NCBI GenBank assembly: GCA_024762935.1
Contig: JANTGK010000006.1
Location: 1-46,112 of the forward strand
Reading direction: 5' to 3'
DNA length: 46,112 bases
Source of the DNA: Candidatus Peregrinibacteria bacterium
Lineage (GTDB): Bacteria > Patescibacteriota > Gracilibacteria > CAIRYL01 > GCA-016699755
Shown here piece by piece: positions 2,689 through 45,509 of the stretch. Below the pieces are notes generated by a model. The model was not told the DNA's origin, made no database searches, and was given only the letters and a program-made list of their open reading frames with translations. Numbering within the stretch: the first letter of the stretch is position 1; each line of letters begins with the position of its first letter. Made by a program: the position numbers and the translations under genes.

Positions 2689-2724
2689 GTAGGAAGTGAA
2701 GCAATTCACTTCCTACTTTTTTTT
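2689..2724 (+). terminator. Terminator-like perfect hairpin GTAGGAAGTGAA-gcaa-TTCACTTCCTAC followed by T8
   Basis: 12-bp perfect stem, 4-nt loop and T8 in + orientation; overlaps the stop codon of the minus-strand CDS 2713..4665. Confidence 0.75.
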
Positions 2725-4665
2725 ACTAGTAACCGCCTTCCAGAGTGAAGCGAGAGAATTTGAATAATCCTCAATGTTTTTATCAATATATTCCATAATA
2801 AATTTATGAACCTTGTCATGAACCCAACTCAGCTCCCTTGTCCCATACTCCTTTACAATATCAGCATTAATATTTTTTGCACTAATGTCACCAGTATAAC
2901 GTAATGGCTTTTTTTCTTGCTCCTCTGGTTCCGCACCCTCTTCATTGCTCCCATTTCCATCACTCTCCGCACCCGATGCTGGATTATTCTCCGAAGGATT
3001 AAGAGTACCATTTACATCATGAGGGGCAGCATTTTGTCCTTCTTCAATCTTGTCGCCCCCTTCCAACTGGTTGACGACTTCCGAATTTGCCCCAGTCTCA
3101 GTCACCTTTGAAGAATCATCAATTTTATTTTTTTCAGCAATTCTTTTTTCTGCTATTTTTTTCTTTATAGACCTTTTCGTTGATTGATGAAGCTTTTTGT
3201 AAAAAAGGTCTTTATTTTTCATAATATATTCTATCACCTTCTCCTGAGACGCTCCCGTTAAAAGAGCAAGAAAACAATTCTGTCTCCGATTTCCCATTGC
3301 AGAATAATCTGAGTAACATTTATCTACAGGTACATTTTTATTGTATAGCCCTCTTTTCTGATCTTCAGTTAGGCCATCTGTTGATATATCCAAATCACGC
3401 AATGTAGTTTCAGTAACCTGTGACTGAAGATAATCAAAAAGAATTCCTTTCACCGCTTCATTTTCAAGAATTGCCTTTAAAAGCTCTTCTATATTAGAGA
3501 GATCTTTGAAATCTTTTTCTCTATTGCGTGTACCATTCCTTCCAGCAAAATATTTTCTTTCGTATGCTTCTCTTAAAATTTCCTGACCCTCTTCTGACAA
3601 CACATCTTTATCTGTGACCCCTATCATTTCCTCCTGCACTGTTTGTATTTCGAGATCACCTTTTATACTCGGAGGAACATCATTTGAATCAGTATCATCA
3701 AGAGTGTTTACTTCATTTTCATTCGAATCCTCCTCAAGCTTCTTCTCTTCTTCCTCTTCTTCCTCCTTCTTTTTATCTTCTTCCTTTTTAAGCTCCAATA
3801 GTCCTTCTGCAGCATCAAAGATCATCTCCATAATTTGCTCCTTTTTTAACTTCGGTCGGACATTCCGAACACGTCGGATAAACATATTTAAGTAGAGCCC
3901 CATTGTCTGTACGTCTGGTGGAGATGTTTCTGGCAAATTCATTCCAATATCTTTTGAAACAATTTTTCCAAGAAGAGGAATACTCCTCAGAAACCCTCGT
4001 GTATTTCCCACTACTTTTTTAATATTCGGATCTAAAAGATTTTTATCTACCGTTTTATCCCCATAACCCGGTATTTTTTGAAGCAGTTTCTCTGCTTTTT
4101 CATCTCCATCTTCAGCATCGTGAAAGAGCGCAATAATCTTTTCCATTTTTTTCGCTCGGTCTTCTCCAATACTCCTTTCTTTTTCCGAAGATTCTACCAT
4201 TTTCGAATCCCACCAACGCTTCATCTTCCTCCGCATAAAATCAAAAATACCCTCTTTATTTCCTCGTTCTGGTGAAGCATATTTTTTTCCTTTAAAAACA
4301 TCTTCATACTCATCTTTGCTAAACTGCATTTCCCGAACCTTGTTTCGCTGATTTTTTATGAGAATTGCATTTGCAGCCGCAAACCCGACAAAACTTCCCG
4401 GTACCACTACTTCAGTAAGTCCACCAGCCACAACACCTTTTGCAACACCTTTTAATCCATCATCAACTTGGTATTTACGCTCTGGCTCTGTCAAAAAAGC
4501 TGCTTCGTGGTGCGATATATAATTTCCAAGAATTGGTATACCAATTCCCAAACCACTCAGAGCAGATCGAACTCCTTCTGAAACTCCATTAACCCCGGAA
4601 ACTGGGAGTGAATCAATAGGAGTAACACTCTTATCAACAGCCCGGATTTGATCTACAAAGGACAT
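2713..4665 (-). CDS. Hypothetical protein with hydrophobic N-terminus and acidic/charged low-complexity segment
   Basis: 650-aa ORF; Gly-rich hydrophobic N-terminal stretches, then KKKEEEEEEEKKLEEDSNENE; 3-bp gap to the next upstream gene, so probably cotranscribed. Confidence 0.7.
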   Translation of the reverse strand: MSFVDQIRAVDKSVTPIDSLPVSGVNGVSEGVRSALSGLGIGIPILGNYISHHEAAFLTEPERKYQVDDGLKGVAKGVVAGGLTEVVVPGSFVGFAAANAILIKNQRNKVREMQFSKDEYEDVFKGKKYASPERGNKEGIFDFMRRKMKRWWDSKMVESSEKERSIGEDRAKKMEKIIALFHDAEDGDEKAEKLLQKIPGYGDKTVDKNLLDPNIKKVVGNTRGFLRSIPLLGKIVSKDIGMNLPETSPPDVQTMGLYLNMFIRRVRNVRPKLKKEQIMEMIFDAAEGLLELKKEEDKKKEEEEEEEKKLEEDSNENEVNTLDDTDSNDVPPSIKGDLEIQTVQEEMIGVTDKDVLSEEGQEILREAYERKYFAGRNGTRNREKDFKDLSNIEELLKAILENEAVKGILFDYLQSQVTETTLRDLDISTDGLTEDQKRGLYNKNVPVDKCYSDYSAMGNRRQNCFLALLTGASQEKVIEYIMKNKDLFYKKLHQSTKRSIKKKIAEKRIAEKNKIDDSSKVTETGANSEVVNQLEGGDKIEEGQNAAPHDVNGTLNPSENNPASGAESDGNGSNEEGAEPEEQEKKPLRYTGDISAKNINADIVKEYGTRELSWVHDKVHKFIMEYIDKNIEDYSNSLASLWKAVTSKKK

Positions 4666-4668
4666 ATT

Positions 4669-7600
4669 TTATGAATCGGGTTCTTGGGGTTTAAGATTGT
4701 ATAAATACAAAGAAGTCATAATAAGATATTCCAACTTCATAGCAACACTCTTTTCAGAGTCAAGTGGGGGAGTAATATGCGAGAGAAAATCCTTTGGGTC
4801 TGGATAATCTGTACCATAGAATAAGTTAATATACCATGGGAGAAGATTTGGGTCAACGAGTGTTCCATACATATCTTTTGCCATTGTTTGAATATCATTT
4901 GCATCGGCACTTATGAGTCTCTGTAAGTTTTTATCTCCTTCTGTAAAAAACTGCTTCATAAAATCGCGAGATGACTTCAGTAGAGCAGTTTTGTCGGTTA
5001 TTGAAAGTCGATCAACATTTGACAGTGTGACTTTACTCGCAACAGCATCAAACAATTCCCCAACTTGAGATTTAATACTTCCACGTGTCCAAGGGATATC
5101 AATACTACTGTTTCCACTAGTATTAATAGCAGTATTTAAATGTGTTGTGGCATGAATAGCATTCAAGAGTATTTCTGTTTGTTTGAGTGAAGTTTTGTTT
5201 ATCGGTACTCCCTTCATGCTCTGTAACTGAGCACTCCAATGTGTAAGAGCATCAGTTCCAGCGGTGCCTGTTCCATGTTCTCCAACAAGCCACCAGTGAT
5301 TCCCTGGATCGACTATATCAATCATATTTGCGGGAATGAATCCGGCAATTCCACTCACCGCATCAGATCCTTCAAGAGCCACATTACTAATTGATACACC
5401 AGCATTGCGAAGCTTCGCCAGTATAACAGCAGCACCAAACATATCGTTCAGAAATATATCTTTGAGCTCTCGAGCTGAGACCTTCTCTCCAAGCTGAAAT
5501 TGATCTGAAGCATCTCGCCCCTGATTAACAGCCTTCTCAAAAGGGGAGTTTCCAGGAGGAGTCGTAGACTGAGTAAGGACATGTAAAAAATGAGCATAAT
5601 CTTCATCACGGAGGAGTCCATATGCCTCAATAATATCAGTTTTTACTGGTTTGAGAGCCTTTTCAAGATCTTGCGCATCAGCAATAGGAATATCTTTTGT
5701 TTCTACATTCAAAGCCACATCAAGAACTCCTGTTAATTCTTTTTTTACAACATCATCTGGAGCAGCTTCGAGAATCTTTTTCATTGCCTCTACGGTCAAA
5801 GCAGCAGAAAGAGTATTCCAAAAAGGAATATATGGTCGATCCACCTTTCCATCATTATCCCTATCTAGAATAGCCTTCATCTTGTCTCGTATATTTCCGA
5901 TTTGCAATGATGACATCTTTACTTTCTCTGTAGCAGCAGAAAAATGAGAGGGGAGATTTTTTAAATCGGTTGATTGGAACAAATTCAGCAAATCAGAAAG
6001 GCCGTTGACTGTTGTTTCAATAATCCATCCTCCAGCCGTAAATGGAGCTGCATACAACACTTTAGTGCCATTTTTTGCTGTCTCAATCGTCACATGGTTG
6101 TTGTCCAGAAAGAGAGTAAGTTTCCCCTTTGTCCACTCATATCTATTCACAACACCATCTTTTGCCCCCTTCAGAAAATCAAGTATTGTTTGACCCACTT
6201 CAGGCCCATAGACGGTAAAGAGTTTTACAGTAAATGCTTCTCCCTCTTTTAGCGATTGTATTCCAAGAGGCACTAATGTGTCCTTCAAAGCTTCCCATTG
6301 TTCTTTTGTGAAGACAGCGACATGATCATACAGACCCTGGGCCCGTTCGTTACTCTCTTTTTGCTCTTGTTCTGTTTGAATATATCGAAGCATATCTGAA
6401 AATGACACCTTTGACGCATCTTTCTCAAGAGAATCAGCAACGGTTCCAATCAATCTTCGAAAATATTCCCTACTCGTGAGCAGGTCTGGATTATCTTTCG
6501 TCATGTGTTCTCTCCAGTATGCATTTTTATATGTAAGGCGTAAAAACCCCATTGCAATAATAGGGATTTCATAATCCTGAACACCAGCAACATAAATATC
6601 GCTTAACCCACTTGGGGCACCATCCATAAGAGCATCATAAGACCCTTCCAGTGTTCCTGAATTTTTATGTTGGTACTTCTGTTCCCAATCAAGAAGATTC
6701 TCAGCAGAAATATCATGCATTTTTAGTCCAACAGTTACTCGATGAGCGTGTTCCTGAGCAAATTTTTCAAATTGACCTGTAACACCAAGATGCTCCCTCC
6801 TCTTATCAATCATATTCCACTCAACCCCCACAGAGGTTCCTGAATGCTGCTTTTCCATCGATTGAAGAATTTTTTCTAAAGCACCTTCGTTCCCAGTAGC
6901 TTTTTTATACACTTCATTTCCTGCAAAAAGCATTGCCCCCCATCGAGCTGCTTTTCCCCAGTTATTATCAGCCACGAGTGTCTTATATAGTCCATAAACG
7001 ACAATACCAGCCATAACCATATTTTTTGGTTCATCAATATCTGTAATCATGTCACTCAGGGCATCAAACCCCATATCTAAATAATTCTTCGGATATTCAT
7101 AATCCTCACTCTGTAATTTTGCCTTTTTATCATTTTCCATCTGACGTCCTCTTGACTGAATATATTGAGCCAGTTTCTCAAAAAATCCACCATCCTGTAG
7201 TTCCACAAGATTCATCTTCCTCTTTGCATCAAGAGTGTATTTTAAAAAACTATCATCTGCACCCACAGGGACAACACCCGCTTTCATACCCACAAGCATA
7301 CCTTGTGCCACATTTGGTGGTGCGTATGTAAGCCAAAATGAATCTGCGGTAGCGTTGATATCAAGCCCAGTTTTTTCTGTAAATTCTTGTCGCTCCTTTA
7401 GTTCCCTCTGATCCTTTTCCGTTTCATCATCAATAACGAGCTTATCCATAAGGTGAGCCTTTTTATATTGCAGAAGAAGGGCAGAGGGTTTGATTGAACC
7501 AGGATTCTTCTCTAGGTCTTCAAAAGAAATGGTCTCATTCACAAGGGAATATATAAGAGCAAACATTTGTTCATTGGTAAATGAGACGCCCTGTTTTGCC

Positions 7601-8436
7601 TCTAGCTCCTGAATTTTTTGATACGCATACGAAACAAAATTATTTGCCAAATTTTTTCTGCGCTGAACATTAGCCACCCTATCAAGAGCTCCAGTTGATT
7701 GTGATATAGCAGATAATCTCTCCTGGGCATAATCATCAATTTTTTTATTTGCCCACTCTTGAAAACTTTTCTCAAGCAATGCTTTTTTTTTCATCTCCTT
7801 TGCAAGAGGTTGAATAGCATTCAAATAGTCTACCATATTGGTAATTTCAGTATTTATCTGATCATCTTGCAAAGGAGTGATGAGAGAATTGTTTTTTTGA
7901 AGGGAACGCGCCTGAGTGATGTAGTTTTGAATCTCAGTGACAGCTCGCTCAATGTCAGCAGCATTATTAAGATTTGGTGGAATGGGAACGGGCGTTCTCA
8001 ATTGATACGGTGATGATAAAGGCTGAGCAGGAACAAAAAGTTGTTGTGTTACTGCGAATGCAAAGAGCGAAGGAACATTAGGAAAACGTTTCGAAATATC
8101 AGTAATAGCAGTATTAATATCTTCCGTGAGATTTTTAATTTTTTCTTGAATATTCACCGTTTGTTTTTTTTGAAGTGCCTGAAATTCTTGTTGAAAACTC
8201 GGATCTTGCGTACGAAAATAGAGAATATTCTTATTCTGTGATGGAATTATTCTTCCATTCTTCAATGAAGGCTCATTCATCTTCTCTTGAAGGAACTTCG
8301 AAAGACGAACACCTCCATCACCAAGTTCAGGATTTGAAGCAATGTTCATCCTCTCTGGTCCACTATTATAAAAACACATTCTCTCCCGCCACACGCTCCC
8401 TGCTCTTTGCCGCTGAAAAAGCCACGTTTTTTGCAC
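4669..8436 (-). CDS. Very large uncharacterised protein (start uncertain; an internal ATG at about 8349 is an alternative)
   Basis: 1255-aa uninterrupted ORF; no recognised global domain; contains an EF-hand/dockerin-like loop DRDNDGKVD. Confidence 0.75.
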   Translation of the reverse strand: MQKTWLFQRQRAGSVWRERMCFYNSGPERMNIASNPELGDGGVRLSKFLQEKMNEPSLKNGRIIPSQNKNILYFRTQDPSFQQEFQALQKKQTVNIQEKIKNLTEDINTAITDISKRFPNVPSLFAFAVTQQLFVPAQPLSSPYQLRTPVPIPPNLNNAADIERAVTEIQNYITQARSLQKNNSLITPLQDDQINTEITNMVDYLNAIQPLAKEMKKKALLEKSFQEWANKKIDDYAQERLSAISQSTGALDRVANVQRRKNLANNFVSYAYQKIQELEAKQGVSFTNEQMFALIYSLVNETISFEDLEKNPGSIKPSALLLQYKKAHLMDKLVIDDETEKDQRELKERQEFTEKTGLDINATADSFWLTYAPPNVAQGMLVGMKAGVVPVGADDSFLKYTLDAKRKMNLVELQDGGFFEKLAQYIQSRGRQMENDKKAKLQSEDYEYPKNYLDMGFDALSDMITDIDEPKNMVMAGIVVYGLYKTLVADNNWGKAARWGAMLFAGNEVYKKATGNEGALEKILQSMEKQHSGTSVGVEWNMIDKRREHLGVTGQFEKFAQEHAHRVTVGLKMHDISAENLLDWEQKYQHKNSGTLEGSYDALMDGAPSGLSDIYVAGVQDYEIPIIAMGFLRLTYKNAYWREHMTKDNPDLLTSREYFRRLIGTVADSLEKDASKVSFSDMLRYIQTEQEQKESNERAQGLYDHVAVFTKEQWEALKDTLVPLGIQSLKEGEAFTVKLFTVYGPEVGQTILDFLKGAKDGVVNRYEWTKGKLTLFLDNNHVTIETAKNGTKVLYAAPFTAGGWIIETTVNGLSDLLNLFQSTDLKNLPSHFSAATEKVKMSSLQIGNIRDKMKAILDRDNDGKVDRPYIPFWNTLSAALTVEAMKKILEAAPDDVVKKELTGVLDVALNVETKDIPIADAQDLEKALKPVKTDIIEAYGLLRDEDYAHFLHVLTQSTTPPGNSPFEKAVNQGRDASDQFQLGEKVSARELKDIFLNDMFGAAVILAKLRNAGVSISNVALEGSDAVSGIAGFIPANMIDIVDPGNHWWLVGEHGTGTAGTDALTHWSAQLQSMKGVPINKTSLKQTEILLNAIHATTHLNTAINTSGNSSIDIPWTRGSIKSQVGELFDAVASKVTLSNVDRLSITDKTALLKSSRDFMKQFFTEGDKNLQRLISADANDIQTMAKDMYGTLVDPNLLPWYINLFYGTDYPDPKDFLSHITPPLDSEKSVAMKLEYLIMTSLYLYNLKPQEPDS

Positions 8437-18899: not shown

Positions 18900-21206
18900 C
18901 TATTTGTCATGGTTTTTTGATCCAACCTTTCTTATTTCTAAAAGAATTTTTTTTGAAACGAACTCAAGTAAATCTTCATCAGATGCAGAAAAAATACCGG
19001 ATGGACTTTTAAATTTTTGAAATAATTTTTTTTTGGTGTGCGCCCCGATTCCTGGAATTTCATCAAAAACAGATGCTGTTTCTGATTTTTTTCGAAGTTG
19101 TTTATTAAAAGTGATAGCAAACCTATGAGCCTCATCACGTATTTGTTGTAAGAGTTGATTTTCAGGAGCATTTTTTGGAACAACAAGAGGATTTGACTGG
19201 CTGGGGATAAATATTTCTTCTTCTCTCTTCGCCAGACTACACACTGGGATACTCTCTGAAAGACCTATCCTATCGAGAACCTTTACTACAGCAGAAAGTT
19301 GACCCTTTCCACCATCGATTACAAGGAGATCGGGGATAGCTTTTGCATTTTTTCTTAATTTTTTCGGAGAAATTTTCAAAAGAAGAACATCTTCCCCTGT
19401 TTTCTCTTTATGCTCTTGAATACTCTTTTGAAAAGATTGTGGGGGGTTCTTCTCTTCAGAGAAACCAATTTTTTGCAATGAGACAAGGAGTCTCAAATCT
19501 CTTTTTGGATAAAGAAATCGAAGTGTTTTTTCGCGAGAACTCAGGAAAAACACCTGTAATAATTCTGCTTCTATAAACTCTTGATAAAATTTAGGGAGAA
19601 CAAAAAGACCGGTAACAAAAGAGCTTCTTCCAATCTTTCGTAACTGAATATACCCAATATCCTTCTGAACTGATTCATCTCGAAATACAAATTGATGAAG
19701 AAATGACCCCATAAGAAATATTTTTCTTTCTTTCATGAGGGTTTCAACAAGTTGAAGCTCTGATTGTTTTTTTACCTCTCGAAAAACAATGGATTGAGAA
19801 TGACGAGAAAGGTGTTGCAAACGCCTTCCAAGCACTTCTGCCATAGCTTGAAAATCATCTATTTTTCCCTCTGGAAGAGTTTTTATTTTATATTTTCTAT
19901 ATTCAGACTTCGCTGGTTTTCCCTCAAGAAAAACAATCTGAGATCCCACTGGGTGAGTACCAGAAAGATGTGAAATATCATAACATTCAATCCTCTCTGG
20001 ACGATGAGAAAGCATGAGGGATTTTTGCAGGAGATCAAGAACATCTTTCTTTTCATAACTTGCTCGTGAATTTGCAGCCTGAAGAGCAGCATTTTTTTGG
20101 GCTATCTCTAAAAGTTCACGTTTCGCTCCTCTTTGCGGAAACCTGATTTCCGACTTTCGTCCAGTATATTTCTCTATAAATGCCTCCCATAAGGAATATT
20201 GACTCTCTAAAAGAATCTCAGGAACAAGAAGCAGAGGTGGTATTTCTGGTGAATAGGAGAGATGATCTCGTAAAAAGGTGAGAAAAGTTTCTCTCTCATC
20301 TTCTCCACTGAGAAGAGAGAAATTTTCGGTTCGAAGGATTTTTCCTTTTCGAATATATAAAACATGAAAAAAACTTTTCTCCTTTCCAAAAGAGAAACCA
20401 ATAACATCTGCTGAAAAATTCTGAGGTACAGCAGCTACTTGTGCTGCATCAAATGTCTGAACATATATAAGAAGATCACGAAATCGACCTGCCTTCTCAA
20501 ACTCCTTCTTTTGTGCTGCTTCATTCATAATATCCTGAAGACGATGTTTTATCGATGATGTATTTCCTCGAAGAAATCGAACAACTTCTTGAATATCTTC
20601 ATTATACTTCTCAACTGATATTCGTTTATTACATGGAGCAGTGCAACGTCGTATCTGAAAATCAAGACATGGTATTTTTCTATTTTCTGGGTTCTGAAGA
20701 GGTTCTCCATCCTGTGAAATCTCGACCTTACATGTTCGAAATAAAAGAATTTCTCGAAGAAATTCTATAATTTTCCGGACATGTTTTGCTTTTGCATATG
20801 GTCCAAAATATAAAGATCCATCCCGTTCCAGTTTTCGCGTAAAAACAACCTTTGGGAATGGTTCTTTAGTAATCTTCACATATAAAAAATGCTTGTCGTC
20901 ACGGAGAAGAATATTAAAAGGAGGCTTATGTTCATGAACAAAATTTGCCTCAAGTACGAGAGCTTCCACTTCACTTCGAACAGTAACATACGTAATATCA
21001 GCAATTTTTTTTACCATTTTCCGAGTCTTGGAGCTATGATTGGCACTCTTATGAAAATAACTCCTCACCCTTTTTCTCAAATTGAGAGCTTTTCCTATAT
21101 AGAGGAGTCTTTTATCCTCATCAAAAAACTGATACACGCCAGGCTCTTGGGGAAGATTTTTTAATGCTTTCTTTATTGCCGATGGAATATTCTTCTCTGT
21201 ATTCAT
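18900..21206 (-). CDS. uvrC: Excinuclease ABC subunit C (UvrC)
   Basis: 768 aa; GIY-YIG-type GVYQFFDEDKRLLYIGKALNLRKRVRSYF; ECYDISHLSGTHPVGSQIVF; LLVIDGGKGQLSAV; EIPGIGAHTKKKLFQKF. Confidence 0.96.
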   Translation of the reverse strand: MNTEKNIPSAIKKALKNLPQEPGVYQFFDEDKRLLYIGKALNLRKRVRSYFHKSANHSSKTRKMVKKIADITYVTVRSEVEALVLEANFVHEHKPPFNILLRDDKHFLYVKITKEPFPKVVFTRKLERDGSLYFGPYAKAKHVRKIIEFLREILLFRTCKVEISQDGEPLQNPENRKIPCLDFQIRRCTAPCNKRISVEKYNEDIQEVVRFLRGNTSSIKHRLQDIMNEAAQKKEFEKAGRFRDLLIYVQTFDAAQVAAVPQNFSADVIGFSFGKEKSFFHVLYIRKGKILRTENFSLLSGEDERETFLTFLRDHLSYSPEIPPLLLVPEILLESQYSLWEAFIEKYTGRKSEIRFPQRGAKRELLEIAQKNAALQAANSRASYEKKDVLDLLQKSLMLSHRPERIECYDISHLSGTHPVGSQIVFLEGKPAKSEYRKYKIKTLPEGKIDDFQAMAEVLGRRLQHLSRHSQSIVFREVKKQSELQLVETLMKERKIFLMGSFLHQFVFRDESVQKDIGYIQLRKIGRSSFVTGLFVLPKFYQEFIEAELLQVFFLSSREKTLRFLYPKRDLRLLVSLQKIGFSEEKNPPQSFQKSIQEHKEKTGEDVLLLKISPKKLRKNAKAIPDLLVIDGGKGQLSAVVKVLDRIGLSESIPVCSLAKREEEIFIPSQSNPLVVPKNAPENQLLQQIRDEAHRFAITFNKQLRKKSETASVFDEIPGIGAHTKKKLFQKFKSPSGIFSASDEDLLEFVSKKILLEIRKVGSKNHDK

Positions 21207-28949: not shown

Positions 28950-31900
28950 TCATTCTTCTTTCATCACCTCCAGCACAACTTGTATTCCATCAATTTCAAC
29001 TTCAGAAATTTCATCGGGATTTGTACAAGAAGTCAATATGTCTGATGCCAACACCTCATTTTTGATAAGAGTATGGAACTGCTGAACTACTTCATCAGCA
29101 CCAGTAATCGAGATAATGATTCGATCAGAAATATCATAATCTGCTTTTTTTCTGAGTTCTTGAATATGCCGAATAATCTCACGAGCAACTCCTTCTGCTT
29201 TTAATGCAGGTGTTATCATCGGGTCTAATGCCACAACAATCCCTTTATCCGACTCTACATCAAGACCCGCTTTTCCTATAAAACCGATTTCTATTTCATC
29301 AGTTTCAAGTTTCCATTTCCCAGCAACAGTTACCGTGCCATTCTCATTTTTCACAAAGTTTCCTGATTTTGCTTCACGAATAATATCCTGAATCTCTCTT
29401 CCAAATTTTGGTCCAAGTTTGCGTGCATCTGGCTTTGCGACTACTTCAGAAAGTTCATCTGGATTCTCCACTATCTCGAGCTCTTTCACATTAATTTCTT
29501 CTGTAATAATATCAAGGTTCTCAAGAATCATCTCTTGAGAAATTCTTGGTGGAAGTGCGACTTTTACTTTTGAAAGAGGTTGTCGAACTTTTATTTTCTC
29601 TTTTGCACGGATTGTGAGAGCAAGTGAAATAATTGTACGAACCGCTGAAATTTCAGTGAGAAGATTAGGATTTGCATAAAAAGATTGAAAATCTGGGAAA
29701 TCCGTTAAATGAATTGATTCTGGATCACTACTCCTTCTGAGATTTTGCCATATTTTTTCAGGAAGAAAGGGTGAAATAGGTGCAATAATTTGAGAGACCG
29801 TTTTTATTACAGTATACAAAGTCAAAAATGCTTCATTTTTATCAGTATCTACTTCAGATTTCCAAAACCTCCTTCTGCTTCTGCGAATATAAAAATTTGT
29901 TAATTTATCTAAAAATTCTGGAACAAGACGACACGCTGCATCAATCTCATATGAGTCCATATTGCTTCGAAAATTCTGAATGAGTGTTCTCATTTCAGTA
30001 ATGATCCACTTGTCTAATTTATTATTTAAACACGTTTGTAGCCCTTTCCATTCACCTTTTTCCCACTGATCAATATTCGCGTATGTCACAAAGAAGGAGT
30101 ATGCATTCCAAAGCGGAAGAAATACTCTTCTCATCACCTCTGAAACACCCTCTTCAGTAAATCGAAGATCATCGGCTTTAACCACCTGGGAGTGCATGAG
30201 ATAAAAACGCATTGCGTCAGCTCCATACTTATCAAAAATAACCTGAGGATCTGGATAATTCTTCTTAGATTTACTCATCTTTTGCCCATCTTCAGCCAAA
30301 ACAATTCCATTTACAATAACATTTTTAAAAGCTGGAGAGTCAAAAAGAATATTTCCCAGTACATGAAGCGTATAGAACCATCCGCGTGTTTGATCTAATC
30401 CTTCTGCAATAAAATCTGCAGGAAATCCAACCATACTCTCTGCTGATTGCCCTTCCTCAAAAGGAAAATGATTTTGAGCATATGGCATCGATCCACTTTC
30501 AAACCAACAATCAAGAACCTCAGGAACACGATGCATATCAGTCGAACACTCAGGACATTTAATAAGAATATTATCAATGTATGGCCTGTGCAGATCAAGC
30601 TCTCCAAAATCGTTCGTTGGCAATTGTGAAAAAGAGTATTCCAGTAGTGTTCCAGGGGGGAGACGAAGACCAAACACAGCTTCTTCTGCAAGATTCCGAA
30701 AATACTTTACAATAAGGCGTAAAACGGCACCATGTGTAACAATAAGAACATTCTTATCACCGTGTGTCTTTTCTACTTCTTGTAAAAATTCCAGCGTACG
30801 TTTTTCTACATCCGCCTCTGATTCACCCTCATGAGGATTTTGATGAAACCGTGGACCAGCATCAAAACTAGCCTTCCATTCTGGAATTGGTTTTGAATCG
30901 AGTTTTCCCGCATCGATTTCTTTGATTCGCTCATCCGAAATAATCTCAACATCTACACCCGCAGAATCAGCAATATGTTGAGCAGTTTGTCGAGTACGAA
31001 GAAGAGGGGAACAATAAATAACATCAATACCTTTTTCTTTTAAAAGACTTCCTATTTCTTGAGATTGCTTGACTCCAAGTTGAGTAAGAGAAACCCTATC
31101 ATCAATTTGTGTTGAAAGAATATTCTCAACATTATGAGTCCCTTCACCGTGCCGAACAACAAATATCTTCCCCGTTTTTTTTGCCTTTTTTCCAATCTCC
31201 TCAACGGACCCGACTACTTCACGATGGTTACATTTTTCACACTTCCACACAGGAATCGGCGCCCCCCAATACCTACTCCGTGAAATTGCCCAATCCGGTG
31301 CCCCTTCTAAAAGTTTTCCAAATCGACCATCTCTTAGGTGGGACGGAACCCAACTAATATCTCTATTACTCTCAATAAGTTGTTTTTTAATCTTCTGTAT
31401 GTCTACAAAAAAAGTGTGAATTCCTCGATACATAAGAGCACAATCAGTTCGCCAACAAAAAGGATAGCTATGACGAATCCACTCCTGTTTGAATAATTTC
31501 CCCTCATCTTCGAGTTTTTGAACAACTCTTTTGTTCACATTGTCTTTTATGGAATCAGCAACCGTCTCATCCTTTCGAAAATAGAGTCCAGAAAATTCCG
31601 GAATCGAATCATCAAAATAACCATTTTTATCAATGGGATCGATTGGTTCTATGGAGTGAGCCCGGCACACACGACTATCTTCTTCACCAAAAGCTGGTGC
31701 CAAATGAACAATTCCCGTTCCATCAGCATCACTCACAAAGTCATTTCCTAATATCTGAAAAGCATTTTTGTGATCTGCAAAAAATGAAAAAAGGGGAGTA
31801 TATGTTTTTCCAACGAGATCAGATCCGTGATAGATTTGAATAATTTTTGGTAAAGTTGATAAAGACTCATTTGACTGAAGATCTTTTGCAGAAGGAAATA

Positions 31901-32726
31901 ATTCATTCTTCTTTTTTTCAAAAATACTCTTTGCCAAAATATAGTGTTTATTCTCTCCTGATTTATTCTCATATTCTACTTTCACATACTCAATATCCGG
32001 ATTCACACAGAGTGCCAAATTACTCGGAAGCGTCCACGGTGTTGTTGTCCAAGCTAATACATATGTTCCTGGCTTATCAGCAAGTTCAAACTTCACTGTA
32101 ACTGCTGGATCATCAATATCTTTATAATTCAAATTCGCTTCAAAATTACTAAGAGTAGAAGCAAGTTTTGGAGAATACGAAACTACTTTTTTACCCTCAT
32201 AAATAAAACCTTTTTTCCAAAGTTCTGAAAAAACCCAGAGAATTGATTCCATATATTGAGGATCCATCGTCCGATATGAATTCTTAAAATCAACCCATCG
32301 CCCCATCCTCTCGACAGTTTGTTCCCATTCACCAGTGTATTTCTGAACAATACCGCGACAAGATTCACAAAAATTTTGGATACCATACTTTTCAATATCC
32401 TCACGATTCTTAAAGCCAAGTTGCTTCTCCATTTCATGTTCCACAGGTACACCATGACAATCCCAACCAAAGCGACGAGGAACATATTTACCGAGCATGG
32501 TTTGATACCGAGGGATAAGATCTTTTAGTGTTCCAGCAAGAATATGTCCATAGTGTGGCAAACCCGTTGCAAATGGAGGACCATCATAAAAAGTAAATTG
32601 ATTTGACACATCACGATTTTCAAGAGACTTTCGAAAACAGTCATTTTCTTTCCAGAAACAAAGAATCTCCTCTTCGATTTGAGGAAAATGTACTCTTGCA
32701 TCAACCGGTTGAAATGAGGAAGTCAT
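28950..32726 (-). CDS. ileS: Isoleucyl-tRNA synthetase (eukaryal/archaeal-like type) with inserted histidine-phosphatase domain
   Basis: PFATGLPHYGHILAGTLKD signature; CP1-type WTTTPWTLPSNLAL; KMSKSKKNYPDP; RHGEGTHN...LLRTRQTA...VTHGAVLR insert; start reassigned from TTG at 32750 to ATG at 32726 (MTSSFQPV). Confidence 0.96.
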   Translation of the reverse strand: MTSSFQPVDARVHFPQIEEEILCFWKENDCFRKSLENRDVSNQFTFYDGPPFATGLPHYGHILAGTLKDLIPRYQTMLGKYVPRRFGWDCHGVPVEHEMEKQLGFKNREDIEKYGIQNFCESCRGIVQKYTGEWEQTVERMGRWVDFKNSYRTMDPQYMESILWVFSELWKKGFIYEGKKVVSYSPKLASTLSNFEANLNYKDIDDPAVTVKFELADKPGTYVLAWTTTPWTLPSNLALCVNPDIEYVKVEYENKSGENKHYILAKSIFEKKKNELFPSAKDLQSNESLSTLPKIIQIYHGSDLVGKTYTPLFSFFADHKNAFQILGNDFVSDADGTGIVHLAPAFGEEDSRVCRAHSIEPIDPIDKNGYFDDSIPEFSGLYFRKDETVADSIKDNVNKRVVQKLEDEGKLFKQEWIRHSYPFCWRTDCALMYRGIHTFFVDIQKIKKQLIESNRDISWVPSHLRDGRFGKLLEGAPDWAISRSRYWGAPIPVWKCEKCNHREVVGSVEEIGKKAKKTGKIFVVRHGEGTHNVENILSTQIDDRVSLTQLGVKQSQEIGSLLKEKGIDVIYCSPLLRTRQTAQHIADSAGVDVEIISDERIKEIDAGKLDSKPIPEWKASFDAGPRFHQNPHEGESEADVEKRTLEFLQEVEKTHGDKNVLIVTHGAVLRLIVKYFRNLAEEAVFGLRLPPGTLLEYSFSQLPTNDFGELDLHRPYIDNILIKCPECSTDMHRVPEVLDCWFESGSMPYAQNHFPFEEGQSAESMVGFPADFIAEGLDQTRGWFYTLHVLGNILFDSPAFKNVIVNGIVLAEDGQKMSKSKKNYPDPQVIFDKYGADAMRFYLMHSQVVKADDLRFTEEGVSEVMRRVFLPLWNAYSFFVTYANIDQWEKGEWKGLQTCLNNKLDKWIITEMRTLIQNFRSNMDSYEIDAACRLVPEFLDKLTNFYIRRSRRRFWKSEVDTDKNEAFLTLYTVIKTVSQIIAPISPFLPEKIWQNLRRSSDPESIHLTDFPDFQSFYANPNLLTEISAVRTIISLALTIRAKEKIKVRQPLSKVKVALPPRISQEMILENLDIITEEINVKELEIVENPDELSEVVAKPDARKLGPKFGREIQDIIREAKSGNFVKNENGTVTVAGKWKLETDEIEIGFIGKAGLDVESDKGIVVALDPMITPALKAEGVAREIIRHIQELRKKADYDISDRIIISITGADEVVQQFHTLIKNEVLASDILTSCTNPDEISEVEIDGIQVVLEVMKEE
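30624..31172 (-). other. Histidine phosphatase (phosphoglycerate-mutase-like) domain embedded in IleRS
   Basis: KTGKIFVVRHGEGTHNVEN...YCSPLLRTRQTAQHIA...DERIKEIDAGKL...EGESEADVEKRTLEFLQEV...NVLIVTHGAVLRLIVKYF, flanked by CEKC and CPEC. Confidence 0.93.
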
Positions 32727-32734
32727 AGTATTTC

Positions 32735-32760
32735 TAAAAAAAGCCAGCAAATATCATGCT
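32735..32760 (-). terminator. Candidate leader terminator at the end of the T-box
   Basis: Minus strand CAGCA-TGATATT-TGCTG-GC-TTTTTTT immediately before the ileS ATG. Confidence 0.55.
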
Positions 32761-41891: not shown

Positions 41892-44800
41892 ATGAAAAAC
41901 ACCCACTCATACACTTGGCTCTTTCAAGAGGAAAAATCCTTTCAGGAGAACAGGATTATATTTGAAACACAACCATCTCTCCATTCACATCTTGATGCTG
42001 TTACAGATACAAATGATGGAGAAAAAATACCAGAATACCTCGGAAAATCAGATAGCAGAAACATTGGGCAAGAACACATTGCAACGGCAATACATGAAAT
42101 AGAAGAAAAACTATCCAACATGTATGGAAGAGGACTCCTGAATAAATCAGACAAAGAGTATTACCTCGGCAGGGCCAATTCTGGGCTCATTATCATTGCT
42201 GATGAATATACAGAAAAACTAAATCAATCATGGGTCACGCACACAGGAGAGATAGATTCACTAAAAAATGCAGTTTTACAAGATATTGATCGATACATAA
42301 GAGAGATTGAAACAGAAGCAGCACAAGACTTTAGAAACAAAGCAGCCTACAATAAACGTGTGAGAGACATGAGAGAAAAATTTGAAGCTGCGAGAGGCAT
42401 TATCGTCCCATCAAAAAATTCTTCAGGAAATTTTACTGAACCGTACCCTCGCTCTGCATCAAGTCAGGAACTGGAACTGACATACAAGACTTTAAAAAAT
42501 GAAAACAGGAAAACAACCTACCATGATCTCATGGATCAGGTACAAAAGATTGAAAACTATGAACCGAATGTGAAGCAAATAGTAAAAGCCATTTCAGATC
42601 CCAAAAAAGCCAAAGAAATAGAGACAATACTTCTTAGTAATCAAAAGAAATATACTGGACAAATGGCACACCTGATTATCGAAGAAGAAAATGAAGGTAT
42701 GGGCGAAAAAATCAGTGAATTTTTTAACAACAAAAAAGAACTCGAAGTCTTTGCAGGAGACCCGAGTGCAGTAATACAAGCATTTCTCCTGAAAAAGGCA
42801 GAGTATCTGTTAGCTGTCGATTATAAACTCGTACGAGAAGAGGGGAGTCAGCCAGAGACAAAAAACCCAACTGAGAAAGAATCAAGAACAAAAAATATAG
42901 ATTTTGAAAATATTTATGCTCAATTAGTCCATCTCAAAATTGCCAATTCTTCAGCAGAAGCCAAAGAAATACTCCAGAACGGAAATGTAAACATTGCTGG
43001 GCAGCAACTTTCATTTCATGAAAAAGACCCCCAAACAATAACTCAAGAACTCGAGAGACTTCTTCAAATAAATGCAGAAACAGCTGCAAAATATGTAAGC
43101 GAGCACTATGTCGATGAAAATGAAAGAGAGTCAAACCAAAACACGATACAAAAGCTCGGAAAGATACTTTCCGGAAAATATAACTTCTTTGAGAAAGATA
43201 AAAAAGTGATCATCTCTCAGTTCGGAAAAGGAGAAGAAATAAAGGAAGATACCCTCATCGATGACCTGAAAACAAACTACGACATTTCCCTCAAGGAGGA
43301 TGGAAAAATAGATTTTACAACACTTTCAGAAGAAAATTTGCAAAAAATTACTGATGATTCAGAAAAAATGGATAAAATACACACCCTCCTCGAAGGAGCA
43401 AGTGGTTCCGGAGAAACCCTCTGGAAAAAAATCATCGCCATCCTCATCGAGATATTCAGCGGAAAAGACCTCTTTAATGCCATAGAAGAATCAGAGATAA
43501 AAATGATTCTTGATGAATTTGAAGATATCGAAAAACCAGAAAATGGCTGGAACACCGGAGATACCATCAACATTGATTACAAAAATAAAGATTCTGATAT
43601 CCTCAAAGAATTCAAGGTGTCTAAAAATAAAAAAATTCAGAAAAAAATACTCGCAAGACATCTCGGAATTCCAGCAAAAGAAATCAGTGCCATAGAATTT
43701 AAAGACGAAAAAGTCATCGTCACCATCGGCAGCTCTAATGCTGCAGAGTCTAAAAAATCAGGAGAAGTGCAAGTATCAGAATCTAATCTCGAAAATGCAA
43801 AATCGTATATGAACCAGAAGGATGTCGAAACTTTTTTGAAGACTGATGCTGGTGCAAAAAAACTCCTAACAGAATTGGAGTCATACGGAGGAAAAAGCCT
43901 CATAACTGCCATTATTGCACAAGAATCAGGTGGGCTTGGGAACCCTCAGGATATGCAAACAGCACAGTCTCCTGTTCATGCCCTTGGAGGAACACAAGTA
44001 ATGCCAGAAACAGCTATTAACCTCATTACCCAGTACAACAGGGAATATCAAGAAACATTTACGGAATGTGGACTTGATGAAACATCCATAAAAAATATAA
44101 ATATAAAAAATATAAAAGAAAAACTAAACAATAACCCGAAGCTCAGTGTCTTCTTGAGCATGTTACACCTGAAACGATCACTGGCAAGATGGGAGAACAT
44201 TAATGGTGGAGGAGAGATTTCTAAGACGATTACCAATAAAAATAAAGAGGAAGAACACCTCAAATGGAATACAGTAGTAGAAGGAAAAAAACTCTCTCCA
44301 GAGCAATTCAGACTTATTATTACATCAGAGTACAATGGAACGCCGTTTATAATACGACGGATTTGGAATGATGTTGCACAAGGTGATCCAGATAGATTTC
44401 CAAAAACTGCACATGAACTCGCAAGCGCAATTCGAAAGATTAAACAGCGAGACCCAACCACAACACTTGAACAAAAAGATCTCGATCAAAATGCTGACTA
44501 TCTCGAAAAAGTCAGTGCGTACTACCAAGTACTCAGAGGAAAAACAACCATAGCAGCACTAAAAAAGACAACCAAAAAACCACAAGAAACAGCACAAACA
44601 CAAGAGAACAGAACTCCACAGCAAAAATTACAACAATATCTTGATACACTCCACGAAGACAATGACATCTATAAAAGAATACAAGGATACAAAACAGCAT
44701 ATAACGACAAGGAATATATCGCCTTTAAGAGTCAGCTATTAGAATTCCTGCAAAATGATATCAATGGAGAAGAAACGAAAATACTCGATGCGCAGGAGAT

Positions 44801-45509
44801 AGATATTCCAAAAAAATTAGAAAAAGTAAGAAAACTTTCTGATCTATCACAAGCAGTAAAAAAAGAAGGAATGAATATTCATTTCCTCTTCTGGCAAGGT
44901 GCAAAAGCAATAAAGCTCATCAATGACTTCCAGAAAGAATGTTCTGATACTCCCATAAAATTCCAAAGTATCGAAAAATACATTCCTGAAGAGACCAATG
45001 CATCCACATATTTTGATCTTCTTGTCTCTGAACAATCGATAAATAAAACCACACAGCAACCAAACGAACGTTTCGAGAGCATCTTTCAGAGATACACACA
45101 AATCCTCTCTCAGAAGAAGGGAAAAGAGGGTTCAGAGAATGCCGATTTCCAGAAAATTATCCTCCAAAAACTCAATGCCCATATAGAGCAATACAGATCA
45201 GAGACCATGAGTTCCTCTCTTTCTCCAACAAAAAAATTACAGAGAATGAAGAACGTATACAAGAAAATACAAGCATCAAAATTAAAAATCCCATTCGATT
45301 TTTGGGAACGTCAGGAAACAACAGAAATGATTCAAAAATATTTCCATGACGCCATTGAGAAAAGAGAGTCCTACTGGTTTTTTCAAAGGAGAAAAGCAAA
45401 TGAAGAATTTAAGAAAAGTATTTCTCTCCTCAAAGATTCTATCCCCGAAGACCTCCCGATTTATAATGTATTTCTCTTCTTTCAAAACAGTTCTGATAAA
45501 CAGAAATAA
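41892..45509 (+). CDS. 1205-aa protein with lytic-transglycosylase (SLT)-like segment
   Basis: Around 43860-44460: SLITAIIAQESGGLGNP...SPVHALGGTQVMPETAINLI...SEYNGTPFIIRRIWN resembles the Goose-type/SLT pattern AxxxxESGG..GxxQvMPeTA..YNgG. Confidence 0.75.
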   Translation: MKNTHSYTWLFQEEKSFQENRIIFETQPSLHSHLDAVTDTNDGEKIPEYLGKSDSRNIGQEHIATAIHEIEEKLSNMYGRGLLNKSDKEYYLGRANSGLIIIADEYTEKLNQSWVTHTGEIDSLKNAVLQDIDRYIREIETEAAQDFRNKAAYNKRVRDMREKFEAARGIIVPSKNSSGNFTEPYPRSASSQELELTYKTLKNENRKTTYHDLMDQVQKIENYEPNVKQIVKAISDPKKAKEIETILLSNQKKYTGQMAHLIIEEENEGMGEKISEFFNNKKELEVFAGDPSAVIQAFLLKKAEYLLAVDYKLVREEGSQPETKNPTEKESRTKNIDFENIYAQLVHLKIANSSAEAKEILQNGNVNIAGQQLSFHEKDPQTITQELERLLQINAETAAKYVSEHYVDENERESNQNTIQKLGKILSGKYNFFEKDKKVIISQFGKGEEIKEDTLIDDLKTNYDISLKEDGKIDFTTLSEENLQKITDDSEKMDKIHTLLEGASGSGETLWKKIIAILIEIFSGKDLFNAIEESEIKMILDEFEDIEKPENGWNTGDTINIDYKNKDSDILKEFKVSKNKKIQKKILARHLGIPAKEISAIEFKDEKVIVTIGSSNAAESKKSGEVQVSESNLENAKSYMNQKDVETFLKTDAGAKKLLTELESYGGKSLITAIIAQESGGLGNPQDMQTAQSPVHALGGTQVMPETAINLITQYNREYQETFTECGLDETSIKNINIKNIKEKLNNNPKLSVFLSMLHLKRSLARWENINGGGEISKTITNKNKEEEHLKWNTVVEGKKLSPEQFRLIITSEYNGTPFIIRRIWNDVAQGDPDRFPKTAHELASAIRKIKQRDPTTTLEQKDLDQNADYLEKVSAYYQVLRGKTTIAALKKTTKKPQETAQTQENRTPQQKLQQYLDTLHEDNDIYKRIQGYKTAYNDKEYIAFKSQLLEFLQNDINGEETKILDAQEIDIPKKLEKVRKLSDLSQAVKKEGMNIHFLFWQGAKAIKLINDFQKECSDTPIKFQSIEKYIPEETNASTYFDLLVSEQSINKTTQQPNERFESIFQRYTQILSQKKGKEGSENADFQKIILQKLNAHIEQYRSETMSSSLSPTKKLQRMKNVYKKIQASKLKIPFDFWERQETTEMIQKYFHDAIEKRESYWFFQRRKANEEFKKSISLLKDSIPEDLPIYNVFLFFQNSSDKQK

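Follow-up and report, generated by a model that had tools for sequence, protein, structure and literature searches.

The isoleucyl-tRNA synthetase (IleRS) encoded in the window, i.e. the whole 46,112-nucleotide stretch of Candidatus Peregrinibacteria DNA analyzed here, carries a complete histidine phosphatase domain inserted in frame within its own chain. On balance, we favor reading this protein as a bifunctional IleRS with an active PhoE/PspA-like phosphatase that is tied to the charging of Ile and Val tRNAs; both the activity and the role are inferred, in the absence of activity, substrate or protein-level data. The gene and its landmarks are as follows, with percentages giving the conservation of the residue over 138 inserted domains:

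28950..32750, minus strand: ileS, coding for the fused isoleucyl-tRNA synthetase of 1266 aa; a single ORF matching TIGR00392
32544..32555, minus strand: HYGH (the HIGH motif) of the synthetic site, aa 66-69
32031..32048, minus strand: TTTPWT of the CP1 editing site, aa 235-240; invariant in 21/21 fused IleRS
31677..31694, minus strand: AFGEED with the editing Asp358; the Asp is invariant in 21/21 fused IleRS
31230..31241, minus strand: CEKC, first half of the Zn knuckle, aa 504-507; kept in ~60% of 21 aligned fused IleRS
30624..31190, minus strand: in-frame insert, histidine phosphatase branch 1, ~aa 521-709 (site A), recognized by PF00300 and delimited by comparison with relatives without it
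31143..31154, minus strand: RHGE, aa 533-536, with Arg533 (R 98%) and the nucleophilic His534 (H 99%)
30996..31010, minus strand: SPLLR, aa 581-585, with the second catalytic Arg585 (100%)
30906..30923, minus strand: KEIDAG, aa 610-615, with Glu611, the proton donor/acid (90%)
30729..30740, minus strand: VTHG, aa 671-674, with the second catalytic His673 (98%)
30546..30557, minus strand: CPEC, second half of the Zn knuckle, aa 732-735
30267..30281, minus strand: KMSKS of the synthetic site, aa 824-828

The host chain meets each of the membership tests for an isoleucyl-tRNA synthetase, namely an equivalog-level score in a profile search (924.7 bits with TIGR00392, ileS, over the 1266-aa ORF against a cut-off of 621.4), the HIGH and KMSKS motifs, and the Thr and Asp of CP1 editing. 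It thus bears out the initial annotation, which had read a single 1266-codon ORF through HYGH, CP1 and KMSKS. The ORF as listed begins at a TTG codon; translation more likely starts from the ATG at aa 9 (nt 32726). As the whole genome (1.38 Mb in 82 contigs, a MAG-like assembly that is ~96% complete) contains a single ileS match at E<=1e-160, the fused protein is very probably the IleRS of the cell. Both its synthetic-site and CP1 editing residues are intact. A model of aa 9-900 (pLDDT 81, pTM 0.77) matches the type-2 (eukaryote/archaea-like) IleRS, e.g. 7d5c and 1ile. These type-2 enzymes (7d5c, 1ile, 8c8v) share the whole catalytic body with the window protein, including HYGH, KMSKS and the residues of CP1 editing, but none of the IleRS structures or family models examined has a phosphatase in the Zn-knuckle loop.

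The boundaries of the insert, which were set by comparison with relatives that lack it, place it in the loop that separates the two Zn-knuckle halves, directly ahead of DCWFESG, and the coordinates first proposed for it agree with them. It meets three tests for membership in branch 1 of the histidine phosphatase superfamily, i.e. profile, catalytic motifs and alpha/beta fold. First, PF00300 matches aa 529-705 with 134.4 bits (E 5e-39; cut-off 21.7) and is covered over positions 1-179 of its 194; this is the sole PF00300 domain in the 1.38-Mb genome. Second, the motifs that the initial annotation had picked out between the CxxC knuckles, RHGE, SPLLR, KEIDAG and VTHG, are all located (aa 533, 581, 610 and 671), and the catalytic set is complete (R533, H534, R585, E611, H673), just as had been proposed from their apparent integrity. 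Third, the insert is predicted by AlphaFold2 to fold on its own (pLDDT 93.9, pTM 0.90) and within the aa 9-900 model it stands well ordered between the knuckle strands (block means mostly 83-96, one 69).

In Foldseek comparisons the structures nearest to the insert by TM-score and rmsd are those of the broad phosphatase PhoE (1ebb/1h2e; TM 0.81/0.79, 2.2 A), with PspA (4ij6; TM 0.79/0.76, 2.2 A) also near, and the best sequence match in the PDB is PspA (4ij5; E 3.5e-15). PhoE (1ebb/1h2e) and the metal-independent phosphoserine phosphatase PspA (4ij5/4ij6) thus have in common with the insert both the fold (TM ~0.8, 2.2 A) and the five catalytic residues; however, they are separate enzymes, whereas the phosphatase of the window is nested in a synthetase. 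No NCBIfam phosphatase equivalog cut-off is reached: the insert falls under those for PspA (NF045917, 85.1 vs 350 bits), the CobC alpha-ribazole phosphatase (TIGR03162, 98.0 vs 162.9), the SixA phosphohistidine phosphatase (TIGR00249, 44.0 vs 74.5) and the cofactor-dependent phosphoglycerate mutases (PGM; TIGR01258, 64.9 vs 81.7, and NF038349, 98.9 vs 225), and the substrate cannot be named from the family models. The possibility that the insert is the glycolytic PGM relocated into IleRS could draw on the high rank of PGM structures when the fold matches are ordered by E-value and on the absence of any other PF00300 domain from the genome. Nevertheless, we give it virtually no weight in face of a cofactor-independent PGM encoded in the genome (iPGM_N, 227.6 bits), the missed PGM cut-offs and the PhoE/PspA phosphatases as the closest structures. 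Several other identities were also set aside. An intein or splicing element was rejected as PF00300 alone was found in the insert, without any Hint or splicing domain; an anti-phage defence protein, as neither the whole protein nor the insert has a match in PADLOC-DB; and the GNAT-bearing IleRS family (NF040702), as the window protein scores 301.8 against a cut-off of 1999 and has no GNAT match.

The mechanism that we infer is one in which a complete, independently folding PhoE/PspA-type phosphatase sits in the surface Zn-knuckle loop, leaving the synthetic and CP1 sites intact. It would break a small phosphomonoester via a phospho-His534 intermediate, with Arg533, Arg585 and His673 predicted to hold the phosphate and Glu611 to act as the acid. 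It may have been kept on IleRS to serve the charging or quality control of Ile/Val tRNA, with the phosphatase being supplied in cis by fusion or in trans by a neighboring gene. The initial annotation had suggested that the domain might act on a phospho-metabolite, a nucleotide or an aminoacylation intermediate. For the substrate, our leading guess is a nucleotide or else an amino acid in phosphorylated form, close to the charging reaction; it is a rather doubtful one that we put forward with low confidence. Compensation for a lost editing function was rejected, given the invariance of the CP1 editing residues across 21 fused IleRS.

The fusion is recurrent. When the insertion sites of 41 IleRS-bearing loci of the window's class were aligned, at least six in-frame sites were recovered, the commonest being that of the window itself, site A. 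Histidine phosphatases, which account for 43 of the 51 inserts in this set, also occur at site B (just before DCWFESG, often in tandem with A), site C (just after DCWFESG) and site D (after KMSKS), while other relatives have a NUDIX domain before CP1, an IS200-like Y1_Tnp domain inside CP1, a GNAT domain at C or a Ser_hydrolase domain at B. A scan of GTDB genomes yielded at least ~30 further IleRS-phosphatase loci, which are labelled Parcubacteria, Nomurabacteria, Taylorbacteria, Adlerbacteria, Magasanikbacteria, Peregrinibacteria, Peribacteria and similar. The initial annotation had guessed at a CPR genome. The window's class is inferred, without a label to read it from, to be GTDB Gracilibacteria, as its other members cluster with named Peribacteria, Peregrinibacteria and Gracilibacteria and some of them read TGA as a sense codon. 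In an evenly drawn sample of 137 Patescibacteria genomes the fusion is present in 21 (15%), comprising 17 listed cases of a split IleRS and 4 fused genomes that fell under the listing threshold. The 17 are split at position ~495-513 of TIGR00392 in ORFs of 1124-1480 aa, and the six of them that were newly inspected all carry the phosphatase. The fusion is hence absent from ~85% of the Patescibacteria sampled, and in several genomes where IleRS is unfused, a free phosphatase is encoded far away from ileS. Among 110 Chloroflexota IleRS, no split occurs at the site-A position, the five partial matches among them lying elsewhere in the model. A single fused locus (L120) is labelled Spirochaetia; its domain falls among those of Patescibacteria, its genome is of 0.4 Mb with the sole PF00300 domain in IleRS, and the label is likely a mislabelling or misbinning, such that an occurrence outside Patescibacteria was rejected.

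An assembly chimera, pseudogene or sequencing artefact is a concern that the MAG-like assembly in 82 contigs might raise. We consider that there is next to no chance of this: the frame is open without stops, the inserts are under purifying selection, and the same fusion recurs at the same site in dozens of separate, unrelated assemblies, including single-contig genomes (G157, G049). Hence, none of the three outcomes that the initial annotation had named as fatal to its claim, namely a chimera, the lack of homologous fusions in related genomes or the lack of a PF00300 match, has materialized.

The 138 inserted domains are highly diverged (mean column conservation of 38%) and yet the catalytic columns are among the most conserved (90-100%), with the full set of five catalytic residues in 122 of the domains and four in 133. 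The dN/dS values of the inserts in four pairs are 0.037, 0.133, 0.134 and 0.138, which are similar to or somewhat above those of the synthetase cores. These observations lend support to the bifunctional synthetase first suggested for this gene, with the activity itself remaining an inference. They also bear on an alternative, raised in part by the initial annotation as a structural insertion, in which the insert is a structural or regulatory element, serving in binding or scaffolding (e.g. tRNA contact or dimerization), with the phosphatase chemistry being irrelevant. Such a role is consistent with the retention of a few inserts that have lost catalytic residues (those of IleRS L059 and ValRS L199 and the first of the phosphatase domains in ValRS L082) and with the mycobacterial MutT1, whose RHG domain supports its partner without its own catalysis being required (PMC11784022). 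We nevertheless find it improbable: the catalytic conservation and purifying selection speak against the inserts as a whole being purely structural, and the presence of the domain at four IleRS sites as well as in ValRS leaves no single conserved scaffold position.

Trees of the domains point to multiple origins. In a tree of 155 domains, those from one insertion site tend to group together (23 label changes as against 84 for shuffled labels), and a careful 54-row tree separates three phosphatase stocks. The first, a 31-row clade (97/97), unites all site-A and site-C inserts and part of those at D with two ValRS inserts from other classes, a single UvrB insert and free phosphatase genes that lie beside ileS or close to it, and contains nothing else. 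The second (91/80) combines the site-B and the remaining site-D inserts with ordinary free phosphatases, and the third (100/99) the ValRS inserts of the window's class with an AlaRS insert. IleRS and ValRS thus appear to have captured at least three phosphatase stocks, a count that is a minimum with moderate support because the branches are long and the bootstrap is not fully settled.

Free-standing relatives of the inserts are also found in the neighborhood of ileS. Three genomes with an unfused IleRS (two Nealsonbacteria and one other) show the gene order argS-phosphatase-ileS, where the free phosphatase belongs to the first stock and lies directly upstream of ileS and next to or near argS. 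In one of these (L185) the phosphatase gene overlaps the ileS start (a stop/start overlap) and a single RhuM/Fic-like gene intervenes between it and argS. In two further genomes (G088, G094) an operon has, in this order, ileS, the genes for a glyoxalase, a tRNA_edit domain protein (PF04073) and the phosphatase, and ilvA for threonine ammonia-lyase; here short overlaps flank the phosphatase gene, whose product and a site-C insert are sisters in the tree (100/93). The sole PF00300 domain of several small genomes is in or beside IleRS.

The range of host proteins, most of which were identified by NCBIfam and the remainder by BLAST and motifs, bears on how specific the association is. In a fully listed sample of 79 genomes, all PF00300 domains in ORFs >900 aa belong to 11 IleRS and 3 ValRS genes, and the only other PF00300-bearing ORFs >450 aa (552 and 665 aa) have the domain at their C-terminal end. 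The ValRS of the class carry one, two or three phosphatase domains at the loop homologous to site A, with three in the 1433-aa L082, and a single AlaRS (L081) has one. In a UvrB of 1125 aa (L074:1061-4435, in G015) a phosphatase and a Ser_hydrolase domain are inserted in tandem; its phosphatase and the IleRS insert of G015 are sisters in the tree (99/96) as well as reciprocal best hits, which indicates that the domains also move within one genome. Accordingly, an insertion confined to IleRS was rejected in light of the ValRS, AlaRS and UvrB versions, and a capture confined to synthetases in light of UvrB, UvrC and UvrD-like cases.

This breadth is the basis for the main rival explanation, a landing pad without coupling, in which large housekeeping proteins of the lineage tolerate the in-frame capture of small enzymes at exposed loops, and the phosphatase is an ordinary one that is constantly expressed and hard to lose. 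It is consistent with the NUDIX, GNAT, Ser_hydrolase, Y1_Tnp and MuF_C domains that IleRS relatives carry at other sites, and with the phosphatases in UvrB and AlaRS, the tandem NUDIX domains in LeuRS, GNAT in a UvrD-like helicase and GNAT-like domains in UvrC. We hold it to be somewhat unlikely, and favor a coupling to charging, because a mere landing pad fails to predict the restriction of the internal phosphatase inserts of the unbiased sample to IleRS and ValRS, the convergence of different phosphatase stocks on these two enzymes, or the close free relatives in ileS operons. Against coupling, in turn, stand the ~85% of Patescibacteria that lack the fusion, the free phosphatases encoded far away from ileS, the few inserts with lost catalytic residues, and the related insert in UvrB, a protein without a link to charging. 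In its fullest form, which we see as quite possible though short of probable, the coupling hypothesis credits the branched-chain synthetases with the convergent gain of a third active site, namely a dedicated phosphatase that complements those of synthesis and CP1 editing. It would perform an undescribed step of charging quality control or metabolism, its substrate being a phosphorylated compound that IleRS/ValRS either produce or are poisoned by. Some Patescibacteria would have this phosphatase in cis, and others in trans as a product of the ileS operon.

Few enzymes are as conserved as the synthetases, whose classical additional activity, CP1 editing, already stems from an inserted hydrolase. 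What is seen here is the repeated capture of a different enzyme, both at loops that correspond between IleRS and ValRS by homology and at other sites, in bacteria whose genomes are among the smallest known, with the active site of the captured phosphatase having stayed under selection. That the insertions recur almost only in IleRS and ValRS is suggestive of a so far undescribed connection of phosphatase chemistry with tRNA charging. If the phosphatase serves charging, there would be an unknown substrate or quality-control step to account for; if it does not, the lineage offers a natural experiment in the in-frame capture of complete enzymes by essential ones. Either way, the inserts explain the unusually long IleRS, ValRS, LeuRS, AlaRS and UvrB genes of Patescibacteria.

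Accessory enzyme domains on synthetases are a known kind of architecture, CP1 editing and appended synthetase domains having been reviewed (PMC7373986), whereas a histidine phosphatase nested in IleRS/ValRS is new within the open-access literature that we searched, where no report of one was found. Like the phosphatase, the CP1 editing domain is a hydrolase that interrupts the Rossmann body of class I synthetases as an inserted module and provides them with a second active site (PMC7373986); however, CP1 is an ancient deacylase common to IleRS, ValRS and LeuRS, whereas the phosphatase is a third module found in only a part of the Patescibacteria examined. The family NF040702 (ileS_w_GNAT) provides a precedent for an enzyme domain within the IleRS chain, albeit an N-acetyltransferase rather than a phosphatase. 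The mycobacterial MutT1 (Nudix plus RHG histidine phosphatase; PMC11784022) likewise has a histidine phosphatase domain fused to another enzyme, but it is no synthetase, and the window protein lacks a Nudix domain; a MutT1-like pairing of NUDIX and phosphatase in one IleRS chain does occur in two relatives (L042, L063).

Some of the IleRS relatives show still more elaborate architectures. The 1739-aa IleRS of the TGA-recoding genome G047 (L063) combines a NUDIX, a phosphatase, a Ser_hydrolase and a second phosphatase domain, and an 1805-aa version from Gracilibacteria (L175:185-5599) has MuF_C, GNAT and phosphatase domains. An IS200-type Y1 transposase domain (PF01797) lies in frame in the IleRS CP1 of L041 (G014) and L058 (G035), with NHIH or DHVH as the HUH motif. 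In the IleRS of L034 (G003), ~220 aa without a Pfam match (~aa 627-850) are found upstream of the GNAT domain, and the host motif ADFI is repeated around this region, as if two insertions were stacked.

Comparable architectures were observed in other proteins. In a LeuRS (L232:1-3126, G015:C36), KMSKS is preceded by an in-frame tandem of two NUDIX domains, the second of which matches MTH1-type hydrolases, and a UvrD/PcrA-like helicase (L233:370-3861, G025:C6) has an in-frame GNAT domain. C-terminal fusions, read by eye, were noted in L235, L237 and L234, i.e. TrmD-GNAT in two genomes and AroA-NUDIX in one. Most UvrC proteins of the class have a GNAT-like insert, including that of the window (18900-21206, minus strand), which reaches 768 aa through an insert of ~160 aa (~19335-19820) in the RNase H region. 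The homologous inserts of its relatives resemble GNAT acetyltransferases, while the window's copy is degenerate and has no Pfam match; the UvrC ORFs of G009, G020 and G026 are shorter and apparently without the insert. Finally, three large ORFs of the window have no Pfam match at 1e-4: 4669-8436 (minus strand, 1255 aa), 2713-4665 (minus strand, 650 aa) and 41892-45509 (plus strand, 1205 aa).
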